Assembly: GCF_002904165.1 (NCBI RefSeq)
Contig: NZ_CVTD020000015.1
Span: 62,001-126,000, forward strand
Reading direction: 5' to 3'
DNA: 64,000 nt
Origin: Herbinix hemicellulosilytica
Lineage (GTDB): Bacteria; Bacillota; Clostridia; Lachnospirales; Lachnospiraceae
Positions 2,432 through 30,904 of the stretch are shown here, piece after piece. The position numbers and the translations under genes were made by a program. Within the stretch, counting starts at the first letter, position 1. Each line of letters begins with the position of its first letter. The notes beneath the pieces were generated by a model. That model did no database searches, was not told where the DNA came from, and worked only from the letters and a program-made list of their open reading frames with translations.

Positions 2432-3871
2432 GTGGAAAACATAATAAAAAACGAACTGGAAGCCCAAAGGCAACTAAATATAATTAATGAACTGAAAGAA
2501 AGATTTGAAAAGGAATACCAAAAAACCGGCATCAGAAAAACCTTTCATATAGTAACATTCGGATGCCAGATGAACAGCAGGGATTCTGAAAAAATATCTG
2601 GTATCTTAAAGCAAATCGGTTATGTTCCGACCGATACTGAAGATGCCGATTTTGTCCTATATAATACCTGTACTGTAAGAGAAAATGCCAATAACCGTGT
2701 TTACGGCAGGCTGGGCCACTTATATACCTTAAAAAAGCAACGCCCCGACATGCTTATTGCTTTGTGCGGTTGTATGATGCAGGAAAATACAACGGTAGAA
2801 AAAATCAAGAAATCCTATAATTTTGTAGATATAATTTTCGGTACCCATAATATTTTCAAGCTTGCAGAACTTATAAAGACCAGGCTGGATAATGAAAAAA
2901 CCGGCGGCGACCATTCCGATCATATGGTTATTGATTTATGGAATGATACGGACATGATAGTAGAAAACCTGCCCAATGACAGAAAATATCCGTTTAAAGC
3001 AGGAGTTAACATTATATACGGATGCAATAATTTCTGCAGCTATTGTATAGTTCCTTACGTTCGAGGCAGAGAAAGAAGCAGAAATCCCCAAGATATTATT
3101 GATGAAATAAAGGCCCTGGCACAAGACGGTGTTATAGAAGTTATGCTTCTGGGACAAAATGTAAACTCATACGGCAAAACTCTTAACCCTCCTACAAGTT
3201 TTGCAAAGCTTTTACAGGAAGTCGAAAAAATAGACGGAATACAAAGAATACGCTTTATGACTTCCCATCCTAAGGATTTGTCCCAGGAACTTATAGATGT
3301 TTTGGGCTCATCAAAAAAGATCTGCAAACACCTGCATCTTCCTCTGCAATCGGGAAGCAGCAGATTATTAAAGATTATGAACAGAAAATATACAAAAGAA
3401 GATTATCTTGATTTGGTGGAAAGAATCCGCAAAGCTGTACCCGATATTGCTCTTACAACCGATATCATTGTAGGCTTTCCGGGAGAAACCGAAGAAGATT
3501 TCCTTGAAACCCTGGATGTTGTAAAAAAGGTCCAATACAGCAATGCCTATACATTTTTATATTCAAAACGAACGGGTACTCCCGCCGCCAATATGGATAA
3601 CCAGGTGCCGGCTGAAGTAGCAAAAGAGCGTTTTGACAGATTGGTTGAAGAAATTCATAAATCTGTGCAAAATAACTCCAAGCGTTATGAAAACACGGTT
3701 CAGGAAGTATTGGTTGAGGAAGTCAATGAGCATGACAGTTCCCTGCTTACAGGAAGGTTAAGCAGCAATATGCTCGTACATTTCCCCGGAGATAAAAGCC
3801 TGATCGGTAAAATTATACCTGTATATTTAAAAGAAAGCAGAGGATTTTATTTTATAGGCTCACAGTTATAA
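2432..3871 (+). CDS. miaB: MiaB, tRNA i6A37 methylthiotransferase
   Basis: About 479 aa. Radical-SAM enzyme adding a methylthio group to N6-isopentenyl-adenosine 37 of tRNAs. The N-terminal UPF0004 domain carries the auxiliary-cluster cysteines (TFGCQMN, NTCTVREN, LCGCMMQ); the radical-SAM CxxxCxxC follows (GCNNFCSYCIVPYVRG); a TRAM domain forms the C-terminus. Start: a TTG at 2420 extends the frame, but GGAGG at 2422-2426 would lie inside that extension and is ideally placed for GTG 2432, so GTG is chosen. It is one of two methylthiotransferases in the window; rimO is at 32 kb and is distinguished by its own cysteine contexts. Confidence 0.94.
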   Translation: MENIIKNELEAQRQLNIINELKERFEKEYQKTGIRKTFHIVTFGCQMNSRDSEKISGILKQIGYVPTDTEDADFVLYNTCTVRENANNRVYGRLGHLYTLKKQRPDMLIALCGCMMQENTTVEKIKKSYNFVDIIFGTHNIFKLAELIKTRLDNEKTGGDHSDHMVIDLWNDTDMIVENLPNDRKYPFKAGVNIIYGCNNFCSYCIVPYVRGRERSRNPQDIIDEIKALAQDGVIEVMLLGQNVNSYGKTLNPPTSFAKLLQEVEKIDGIQRIRFMTSHPKDLSQELIDVLGSSKKICKHLHLPLQSGSSRLLKIMNRKYTKEDYLDLVERIRKAVPDIALTTDIIVGFPGETEEDFLETLDVVKKVQYSNAYTFLYSKRTGTPAANMDNQVPAEVAKERFDRLVEEIHKSVQNNSKRYENTVQEVLVEEVNEHDSSLLTGRLSSNMLVHFPGDKSLIGKIIPVYLKESRGFYFIGSQL

Positions 3872-27552: not shown

Positions 27553-29844
27553 ATGGTTAAACTTTATGACAAAGGTGTATATCTGGTTAACGGCAGAGAT
27601 ATAATCGAAGATACAAATGATGCGGCTGCAGCCATTTATCAAAAAACCGGTTTAAAAGATGTTGACAAAGATACCGCCAAAAAAGCCACCATGGCGTATG
27701 AAATCCTTAAAAACCATAATACATCAGGAAATATGGAAAACCTGAAATTAAAGTTTGACAAACTGATTTCCCACGACATTACATACGTTGGAATCCTTCT
27801 TACGGCAAGAGCCAGCGGTCTTGAAAAATTTCCGATTCCTTATGTACTTACCAACTGTCATAACAGCCTGTGTGCCGTAGGCGGAACCATCAATGAAGAT
27901 GACCATATGTTCGGACTTTCCTGTGCAAAAAAATACGGCGGAGTTTATGTTCCTGCCCATCAGGCGGTTATACATCAGTATGCCCGTGAAATGATGGCTG
28001 AATGCGGCAGTATGATTTTAGGTTCCGACAGCCACACCCGTTACGGCGCTTTAGGAACTATGGCCGTCGGTGAAGGCGGACCTGAACTGGTAAAGCAGCT
28101 GCTTGAAAGAACATATGACATTCCAATGCCAAAAGTAATTGCAGTTTATTTAACCGGTTCCGTAAGAAAAGGAGTAGGTCCTCAGGATATAGCTCTGGCT
28201 ATTATAAAAGCCGTATTTAAGAACGGATATGTAAACAACAAAGTTATGGAATTTGTAGGCGACGGTATAAAAAATCTCAGTATGGATTACAGAATAGGTA
28301 TAGACGTAATGACAACCGAAACCACCTGTCTTTCTTCCATCTGGGAAACCGATGAGGCTGTAAAAGAGTATTATGAGATTCATAACAGGCCTTCGGCATA
28401 TAAAAAACTTCAACCAGGTCAGGTTGCTTATTATGACGGAATGGTTTATGTGGATCTCTCAGAGATAAAACCTATGATTTCCATGCCGTTCCATCCAAGC
28501 AACGCTTATACAATAGAAGAGTTCAATGCCAACCTCTATGACATTCTGGATGAAGTTGAAAAAAATGCCCTGATAAGCCTTGATAATAATAAGATAAAAT
28601 ATACCCTTAAAGATAAGGTAAGAAACGGTAAGTTTTTCGTGGATCAGGGAACCATTGCAGGCTGTGCGGGAGGAAGTTTTGAAAATATTTGTGATGCAGC
28701 AGATATACTGGAGAACAAATACATTGGTTCCGGCGAATTCTCATTAAGTATTTATCCTGCCAGTCAGCCCATCTTTATGGAACTGGTTAAAAACGGTGCT
28801 ATAGGCAAACTTATAGCTTCCGGTGCCACAATCAGAACCGCTTTCTGCGGCCCTTGTTTCGGAGCAGGAGATACTCCTGCCAATAACGGCTTCAGTATAA
28901 GGCATACCACCAGAAACTTCCCGAACAGAGAGGGTTCCAAGATAACGCAGGGACAGATCGCATCGGTTGCTTTGATGGATGCCCGTTCAATCGCCGCAAC
29001 GGCTGCCAACCAAGGTTATTTGACCTCAGCCGAAGATATAGACGTGAATTTCGGCAAACCCAGTTATTTCTTTGACAGCAGAATATATGAAAACAGGGTA
29101 TATGACGGAACAGGAAAACCCGAGCCCGAAGTTGAAATAAAAATGGGACCTAACATAGTCGACTGGCCCAAGATGTCTGAACTTACCGACGACATTATCC
29201 TTAAGGTTGTATCTGTTATTCATGATCCGGTTACCACAACCGATGAATTGATTCCGTCCGGTGAAACCTCTTCATACCGATCCAATCCTTTGGGTCTTGC
29301 TGAGTTTACTTTGTCAAGAAAAGACCCTGCTTATGTAGGCCGGGCAAAAGAGGTGCAGAAAGCCGAAAAAGCAAGAATTAACGGTGAGGAAATGACAGAT
29401 GCACTGCCGGAACTTAAGGACATATATAAAGCCATCGAAGCTAAGTTCGATATAGACAAAACCAAGACTCAAATAGGAAGTACAATTTACGCGGTAAAAC
29501 CCGGAGACGGTTCAGCAAGAGAACAGGCTGCAAGCTGTCAAAAAGTTCTCGGAGGACTTGCCAATATCGCTAAGGAATACGCCACAAAAAGATACCGTTC
29601 CAATCTGATAAACTGGGGTATGTTGCCTTTCTTATACGACGGTGAACTGCCTTTTGAAAACGGGGATTATATCTTTATCAAAGGAATTAAAGATGCGGTA
29701 CTTAATAAAAATTCCGAAATTAAAGCATATGTGGCAAATAAAGACATGAAAGAATTTACTTTGCGCCTCGGGGATCTTACCGATGACGAAAGAGAGATTA
29801 TTATAAACGGCTGCCTGATAAACTATTATAAAAACCGGAAATAA
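27553..29844 (+). CDS. aconitase-family hydratase
   Basis: 763 aa. All three [4Fe-4S] cysteines are present: GCAGGS (canonical CTNS replaced) and the FCGPCFGAG pair. Substrate-region motifs [13 protein letters not shown] and [11 protein letters not shown] match aconitase. The spacing and the altered first-cysteine motif fit the clostridial aconitase/YbhJ-like hydratase branch rather than classical AcnA/AcnB; the substrate may be citrate or a related tricarboxylate. The C-terminal swivel domain is included. GGAG precedes the ATG. No citrate synthase or isocitrate dehydrogenase is nearby, so a role in a partial TCA route for glutamate synthesis is inference. Confidence 0.88.
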
Positions 29845-29854
29845 AACAAGACTC

Positions 29855-30141
29855 AATTTCGGGTGTGATACAACGTTTTATAATCAGAAAAAAGCCATCT
29901 TACACATATGTGGAACGCATGCGCCTATGGAAATATATAAGAGTTTCTTTTTACCTGAGAATTAATGTTAGGCCATCAAACCGATTTGTTTGAGCAAAGC
30001 GAGTTATCGGTTTGATGGCCTGTTTAACATTAAATACTCAGGTAAATTAGAAACTCTTATATATTGAAATCGAAGCATGCGTCTACATGTGTGTAAGATG
30101 GCTATATTATAATACCTGACCGTTGTATCGCACCCGAAATT
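29855..30141. repeat. 287-bp giant imperfect palindrome (candidate MITE or structured RNA)
   Basis: Between two convergent genes. Ordered matching arms: 29855-29875 with 30121-30141 (21 bp, one G-U); 29893-29906 with 30090-30103 (14 bp); 29915-29922 with 30075-30082 (8 bp); 29933-29947 with 30050-30064 (15 bp); 29953-29959 with 30037-30043 (7 bp); 29962-29969 with 30026-30033 (8 bp); 29970-29985 with 30006-30021 (16 bp). Loop 29986-30005. At least 89 bp can pair in strict nested order. No coding frame inside and no obvious target-site duplication. It fills nearly the whole 301-base gap; its transcript would be a long double-stranded hairpin. Confidence 0.9.
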
Positions 30142-30145
30142 TTCA

Positions 30146-30904
30146 CTATTTATTTAGTGCTTCCAGATATACTCGTAAATCCTTGTCCTTTTCCAAAGCC
30201 TCTTTGGCCTTTTCGTCAGTATTTACTATCAGCTCCTGCACCTTTTCATCCAGATCTCTTTCATCATAATAAGCTTTCAGGATTTCATCCATTTCGGATG
30301 TGAAGATCTTATAATCACCTTTTTCATCGGTAATAAGATAGAACTTGTCCAACTTAGGGTAAGCGGTTTTTATATTGATATATTTTAGTTCATGATATAC
30401 ATATACGATATATGCGCCTTCCTCATAGCTTTTCATGATATAACAGGTAATATCACGAATATCATCCAAAAATCTTGTATCTTTCTGCAGGTCGGGTAAC
30501 GGCTGTATGTTGTCGGGATCGGTCACAAGAGTTTTTAATAACTGATAGTCGCATAAGTTTACCGCCACATAATAATCCTGGAAGAATTTCTCTATTTTCG
30601 GATATCCTCCCTTCTCCAGTTTATACACCGGCGGCGGAGTCGGTGTGGGAGAAGGAGTCGGCGTAGGTGAAGGTGTCGTGGCAGACAGCATACCTGGCCC
30701 TGCATTAAAAGCCTGCACAGTAATATCATTATTCTGATTATCTATTTCATTAAAATTGTTTGTCGTGCTTATCTCTTGTTTATTTTCGGACAAATCGCCG
30801 GCATATGATATGGGATGCAAAGTCCCAATGAATAAAGACAGGCCGCCGATTCCCATACAATATAACAATGTCATAATTAAAGATCTTTTCATATTCGGCT
30901 TCAT
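30146..30904 (-). CDS. secreted or membrane-anchored protein with Pro/Thr/Ser linker, unknown function
   Basis: 252 aa. N-terminal hydrophobic segment (about 10-33) with a possible signal-peptide site near SYAGD, an acidic/Asn-rich stretch, a low-complexity linker of PTPSPTPT repeats (about 78-92), then a globular domain of about 160 residues (PKIEKFFQDYYVAVNLCD..) resembling NTF2-like folds seen in Lachnospiraceae surface proteins; fold by resemblance only. AAGGAG precedes the ATG. It ends 5 bases from the giant palindrome, which may serve as its terminator. Confidence 0.75.
   Translation of the reverse strand: MKPNMKRSLIMTLLYCMGIGGLSLFIGTLHPISYAGDLSENKQEISTTNNFNEIDNQNNDITVQAFNAGPGMLSATTPSPTPTPSPTPTPPPVYKLEKGGYPKIEKFFQDYYVAVNLCDYQLLKTLVTDPDNIQPLPDLQKDTRFLDDIRDITCYIMKSYEEGAYIVYVYHELKYINIKTAYPKLDKFYLITDEKGDYKIFTSEMDEILKAYYDERDLDEKVQELIVNTDEKAKEALEKDKDLRVYLEALNK

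Follow-up and report, generated by a model that had tools for sequence, protein, structure and literature searches.

A giant palindrome between convergent genes of Herbinix hemicellulosilytica is probably an old copy of a dispersed, MITE-like family with a conserved structured core

In the stretch of the Herbinix hemicellulosilytica genome analyzed here (64,000 nucleotides, hereafter the window), a + strand ORF encoding an aconitase (27553-29844) and a - strand ORF (30146-30904) converge on a short intergenic gap. The initial annotation, made from the sequence alone, described the gap as filled by a 287-bp imperfect palindrome with at least 89 base pairs, and this description is borne out: nested inverted arms occupy 29855-30141, ending ten bases from the end of the aconitase ORF and four bases from the end of its neighbor, and refolding gives 110 nested pairs round the center over 287 nucleotides. 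The outermost 21-nucleotide arms match, as had been claimed, at 20 of 21 positions, the remaining one being a U-G pair. Complementarity is 78% in the arm pair 29855-29914/30082-30141, 82% in 29915-29948/30049-30082, 93% in 29950-29963/30033-30046, and 100% in 29970-29985/30006-30021, the last of which encloses the 20-nucleotide loop noted earlier. The RNA fold of 29845-30151 has a free energy of -156.9 kcal/mol (z -19.2), and none of 100 dinucleotide shuffles was as low. The palindrome is real and far above chance (Table 1).

Table 1. Features of the palindromic element, in window coordinates
Feature	Position	Strand	Basis
Whole palindromic element, 287 bp	29855..30141	+ (the strand giving the tip as TGTTTGAGCAAAGCGAGTT)	Inverted-repeat search, folds
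5' outer arm, sequence particular to the window copy	29855..29918		Arm comparison, ten-copy alignment
Conserved core common to other copies; full-length match to model R1	29919..30078	+	Alignment, consensus fold, R1
Base loop, 5' strand (GCCTATGGA), unpaired	29923..29931	+	Consensus fold
Middle motif, 5' side (TAAGAGTTTCTTTT; in relatives TTAGA-N4-TTCTTA)	29938..29951	+	Alignments; motif named by eye
Apical stem, 5' side, 16 bp, full complementarity	29970..29985		Inverted-arm search
Tip 19-mer, the part conserved most widely	29987..30005	+	Alignments, 19-mer scans
Apical stem, 3' side	30006..30021		Inverted-arm search
Middle motif, 3' side (TTAGAAACTCTTA)	30047..30059	+	Alignments; motif named by eye
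Base loop, 3' strand (GAAATCGAA), unpaired	30066..30074	+	Consensus fold
3' outer arm, pairing imperfectly with the 5' outer arm	30079..30141		Arm comparison, ten-copy alignment

The core of this palindrome is not single-copy. A DNA search, which the initial annotation had proposed as a check for further copies, located one additional core copy in the same genome (G000:C23:30725-30881, 77%) and matches in 7 of 34 genomes of the genus, G007 having 7 such places and G015 having 5. A covariance model built on the element core, R1, matched 11 of the 34 genus genomes and, across the family, 30 of 299 genomes (29 of 298 genera), with just two matches in the window's own genome; R1 gives credit to any long hairpin, and its scores were at most 37 bits in three of the 11 genus genomes (G013, G016, and G024). 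Folding of 19 places in the genus gave mostly long hairpins, some of them truncated. Ten aligned copies follow one plan, in which outer arms that differ are followed inward by a base loop (GCGCCTATGGAAA opposite TTGAAATCGAAGC), a middle motif, and the tip. The tip (TGTYTGAGC-GNA-GCGAGTT), the middle motif, and the asymmetric base loop are conserved among these long hairpins, while the arms vary from copy to copy yet remain largely complementary. Two short versions, L017 in G007 and L019 in G015, keep the base loop and by eye lack the inner hairpin, as if it had been deleted between two TATTAGA direct repeats. At the family level (28 loci, one per genome, with G000 and G016 excluded) the tip lies at the palindrome center with at most four substitutions in 22 loci. 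By eye, at least five more of these loci (L060, L067, L069, L075, and L083) have variant tips, and L080 has a TwoAYGGAY apex. Among the tip hits as a whole, variants such as GTGAAAC and ACGAAGT stand in place of GCGAAGC, and the helices are longer in L067 and L075; both observations speak for a small stem below the loop of the tip. The oligonucleotide d(GCGAAGC) is an unusually stable DNA mini-hairpin.

Covariation was assessed on a consensus fold from nine cores, the tenth, L008, being excluded because its 3' side has diverged. Compensatory changes are present: 23 of the 55 consensus pairs are altered on both sides, against a shuffled mean of 7.1, and none of 500 shuffles reached 23. When the partner strand was slid by 1-3 columns, paired cells fell from 94.5% to 36-42%, a control biased toward the consensus structure, which came from this very alignment. 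An ordinary inverted repeat, present once and lacking homologues and covariation, had been named as the contrary outcome; copies, homologues, and compensatory changes were found instead, and the palindrome belongs to a multi-copy family with a conserved core. The initial annotation had also raised a long structured RNA, and a strand test bears on this suggestion, the rationale being that the strand which folds should tolerate G-T over A-C. Among 118 elements (from 220 tip hits, the others having arm scores below 20), G-T prevailed over A-C at the 30 positions adjoining the tip in 48 elements vs. 18 (p 0.0003), the figures being 27 vs. 8 for family loci and 21 vs. 10 for the wide set (p 0.07). 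Farther from the tip there was no overall strand bias (47 vs. 37, p 0.33), and the subsets disagreed, with family loci at 30-70 leaning to A-C (12 vs. 25, p 0.047) and wide loci at 30-150 leaning to G-T (30 vs. 14, p 0.02). In the outer arms of the G331 and G079 copies described below the mismatch count was 18 to 6, partly reflecting one mismatch common to three copies. Because DNA tolerates G-T too, the strand test speaks for RNA and for single-stranded DNA alike; the compensatory changes and the G-T bias near the tip fit a structured RNA, but are equally what a folded DNA strand would produce.

Within the window's family, the palindromic element is plainly mobile in G331 and G079, two genomes of one genus. 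R1 matched 65 places in G331, the sole congener of G079 searched, and 10 in G079; 20 of the G331 matches and every G079 match were read, and one (L387) showed no tip. Terminal inverted repeats, GTTACAGTTCA, are present with at most three substitutions in 25 of 29 copies, 18 of these 25 are exactly 289 bp long, and 15 of the 25 are flanked by identical 8-bp repeats, with 7 of 8 bases matching in 3 more. When flanks were taken from different copies as a control, 8/8 matches arose in 0 and 7/8 matches in 8 of 2000 comparisons. The end motif occurs at least 134 times in G331, vs. 3 for a reversed control, and at least 26 times in G079, vs. 5. The same GTTACAGTTCA ends bound short palindromes of 48-91 bp (6 read), and exact 8-bp duplications were seen by eye at L467, L471, and L472, which are elements with the shared ends. 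A second palindromic element, 151 bp long and sharing the ends of the 289-bp element, was also observed in both genomes (L464-L468, 5 read). Of 20 regions read inward of lone ends, among the ends listed, several were 150-bp elements, and in 13 the three longest ORFs were judged by eye, with no transposase recognized among them. The window core was linked to the G331 and G079 core through R1 scores, which reach 90 bits, and through a by-eye comparison of motifs.

Elsewhere the marks of insertion are fainter. The best flanking match at the window copy is 4 of 8, and in 96 copies outside G079 and G331 the 8-bp flank matches resemble the control, with the exception of L194 from Sedimenticola (8/8; control 0 of 5000); mobility is therefore shown for part of the family. 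The ends of window-genus copies differ from GTTACAGTTCA, and the whole window element is an inverted repeat. In the genus of G147 (L104-L107, L415-L443) the copies are ~203 bp long and carry extra common bases outside the palindrome (..CCA on the left, G-ACCTCCCGCG on the right), hinting at a further outer module. Within the window's genus, one occupied/unoccupied orthologous site was found: at L014 a giant hairpin of G007 sits between two REP-like repeats, and in G015, anchored on both flanks, the REP-like repeats surround a short loop. No giant hairpin was present at this site in G019, G013, G000, and G016, each anchored on one flank only, and gain of the hairpin in G007 is likelier than repeated loss. 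Thus, the MITE-like nature proposed in the initial annotation stands for the family, given the second genome copy, the terminal repeats with 8-bp duplications, and the occupied/unoccupied site, but the window copy itself lacks a matching 8-bp duplication. In two of four orthologous pairs (L012/L018 and L003/L015), with contig orientation allowed for, the core is inverted relative to its flanks, as expected from recombination between the arms.

The arms themselves change in a paired manner. In 19 in-register G331 and G079 copies (11 of 30 were dropped for want of a tip or ends, for another length, or as off register), the outer arms differ within copies at 25 of 1273 positions. Between copies, both-sided changes outnumber one-sided ones by 3727 to 422 in position comparisons that are not independent, and in nearest-neighbor comparisons (n = 19) both-sided changes were more numerous in 15, equal in 1, and fewer in 3. 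An earlier alignment of six G079 copies gave 289 both-sided vs. 34 one-sided changes, and seven copies from G147 gave 140 vs. 7, with less perfect arms (21 of 147 positions mismatched). Moreover, L099, a G079 copy also listed as L394, has a base loop in which the complement of one strand stands in place of the other. Together, the paired arm changes and this replacement suggest arm-to-arm copying of DNA. The idea that arms are rebuilt at every jump was dropped, as L393, L395, and L397 in G331 have one arm mismatch in common. In the window's genus, two orthologous pairs (G007/G015) carry 24 and 7 one-sided changes and one both-sided change each, showing that the arms drift separately at these two old sites.

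These findings make it probable that the window palindrome is an old, immobile copy from a family of non-autonomous, MITE-like palindromes whose core is conserved and structured. To move the element, a transposase would act on its ends in trans, and the matching of its arms would be kept by arm-to-arm DNA copying, by either template switching or gene conversion. The core may be conserved because the machinery that mobilizes or maintains the element needs its folded single strand, as RNA or as DNA. The window copy would have come by such an insertion, and would now be a passive hairpin at two convergent 3' ends.

An alternative is that selection acts in place on a structured RNA or on the 3' end of an RNA, as a giant bidirectional terminator or mRNA-protecting hairpin with compensatory pairing. 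The compensatory changes in core pairs and the G-T bias next to the tip are what such selection would leave, and the gene context is in keeping with it. Of 118 copies classified with a simple ORF finder, 31 lie between convergent and 6 between divergent ORFs and 33 between codirectional ORFs (22 against the tip strand, 11 with it), while 14 sit at locus edges and 34 within ORFs of at least 80 aa, of which many are probably spurious; by raw count, convergent ORFs thus flank 31 of the 70 classifiable copies. Furthermore, in at least several relatives, ordinary hairpins of unrelated sequence follow the same aconitase gene. However, the copies are dispersed and have target duplications, the strand bias does not extend farther out, and one-sided arm changes predominate at the two orthologous sites. 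In addition, a simple scan for a G+C-rich stem followed by a U run (loops of 3-8 nt, at most 20 pairs counted) found no consensus terminator at the window element. We therefore regard selection as an RNA in place as unlikely. The two-way terminator of the initial annotation keeps the support of its position and of the hairpins after the same gene in relatives, but not that of the terminator scan; the simplest guess is that the window copy is a passive 3'-end hairpin for both genes. At L139, in G004, the same aconitase gene is followed by a different long palindrome whose ends (CGAGTGYCAAAAGTC) resemble those of window-genus copies.

It is also conceivable, although we give it little credence, that the core alone moves into the loops of existing palindromes, such as terminators or REP pairs, and that the arms are host sequence. 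The arms are indeed unrelated between window-genus sites, and the G007 hairpin lies between two REP-like repeats, but a single such site was seen, and in G331 and G079 the duplications lie outside the arms, which indicates that arms and core travel together. Least credible of all is a REPIN-like element that a RAYT (Y1) transposase would mobilize: a divergent gene of the Y1 type, chosen by eye on its scores, occurs in 6 of 11 R1-matched and 4 of 23 unmatched genus genomes, but the RAYT gene of the window's own genome is flanked by other palindromes (with a weak R1 hit of 21 bits on one), the other element loci examined have no RAYT homologue, and the G331 and G079 copies have 8-bp duplications, which Y1 enzymes are not known to make. 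This RAYT-like gene encodes 183 aa and lies outside the window (L355:2814-3365, in G000:C15), with the separate palindromes (GGTGTCAGGCACTG...) adjoining it at L355:98-161 and 3559-3633.

The preferred reading, an old copy of a MITE-like family, invites comparison with described elements. Bacterial MITEs such as QMITE2 and Chunjie, as presented in PMC10969869, are likewise short, noncoding, and hairpin-forming, with terminal inverted repeats and target duplications, the latter shared by the G079 and G331 copies. In contrast, the present element is palindromic nearly throughout, its arms show paired changes, and its core is conserved across phyla with lineage-dependent ends and arms. REP and REPIN sequences, as described in PMC3733652, are likewise palindromes scattered outside genes in several phyla and have sequence-specific features, but measure 20-40 bp vs. 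~200-290 bp here; no GTAG/CGTC tag was seen in our element, which has 8-bp duplications and no RAYT beside its copies. RAYT genes with long terminal repeats on either side are mentioned in the same source. Bidirectional intrinsic terminators share the placement of a hairpin between convergent gene ends, but the element is far longer, has conserved loops and dispersed copies, and lacks a consensus terminator. In one open-access library, nothing alike was found among published palindromic, MITE, or REPIN elements, and the inner part of the 19-mer, searched as text, returned only plant, human-cell, or neuron papers.

The tip extends well beyond the family. In a scan of one genome per species, the 19-mer TGTYTGAGCGAAGCGAGTT occurred in at least 118 stretches. 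Among the 135 exact matches listed, 123 are flanked on each side by 60 bases or more, and 75 of these have palindromic arms (score at least 15; the other 48 score lower), vs. 0.9% of mismatched arm pairs used as a control. Palindromic arms accompany the 19-mer in Marinobacter, Ralstonia, Variovorax, Vibrio, Bacteroidota, Nitrospira, Negativicutes, and Halanaerobium, as well as in the candidate groups Magasanikbacteria, Pacebacteria, and Vogelbacteria, so that Proteobacteria, Bacteroidota, Nitrospirota, and candidate phyla also have the tip at the apex of palindromes. A phage origin was considered and rejected: the 19-mer is present in 60 viral contigs, but with palindromic arms in 2 of the 59 that have enough flank. 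Loci from Bacteroidota and Variovorax (L176, L178, and L195, and in Variovorax L156, L159, and L177) have a further hairpin, TTTTTGGTTCTTTT...AAAAGAAC or similar, 3' of the tip hairpin.

No Rfam family reached its gathering score in window positions 29700-30300 (the best sub-threshold match had 30.7 of 70 bits) or in eight loci from other groups, and no match appeared to the 'Skipping-rope' RNA. In 19 further loci, only L078, with a separate cobalamin riboswitch, and L080, with TwoAYGGAY, had matches at gathering score. TwoAYGGAY (RF01731, clan CL00106) is classed by Rfam as cis-regulatory, and is entered as y/n/n (human gut, gamma-Proteobacteria, Clostridiales) in a table of a 2010 paper (PMC2864571). 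L080 joins a window-type base to a TwoAYGGAY apex (RF01731, 102 bits; R1, 48 bits), and in the RF01731 consensus UAUGGAA, UAG, and UCUUA are by eye spaced similarly, but the TwoAYGGAY apex differs in having two AYGGAY hairpins. Since R1 hit none of the ten other TwoAYGGAY loci tested, the link consists of one chimeric locus and this similar spacing. RF01731 matches 10 of the 34 genus genomes, 9 above the cut-off, with no match in the window or its own genome.

We tentatively raise the possibility, itself rather doubtful, of an undescribed pan-bacterial superfamily of palindromic mobile hairpins, in which the 19-base tip, conserved from Firmicutes to Proteobacteria, Bacteroidota, Nitrospirota, and candidate phyla, would be read by a common machinery as a single strand in folded form, the ends would be particular to each lineage, and the arms would be rewritten continually in paired fashion; TwoAYGGAY would then form a further branch and be mobile DNA instead of a cis-regulator. 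If the overall interpretation is right, it accounts for giant intergenic palindromes, a class overlooked by annotation, ties an orphan Rfam motif, TwoAYGGAY, to mobile DNA, and offers natural material on palindrome arm matching, with 65 matches in G331 and nearly perfect arms in the copies compared. Conservation of the tip across phyla implies a shared recognizing factor, which can now be searched for. The tip hairpins of Marinobacter and Pacebacteria and the TwoAYGGAY RNAs often occur as inverted pairs (- then +), ~160-700 bp apart (L080; L109; G033:C20 and C75; L148, L180, and L226).
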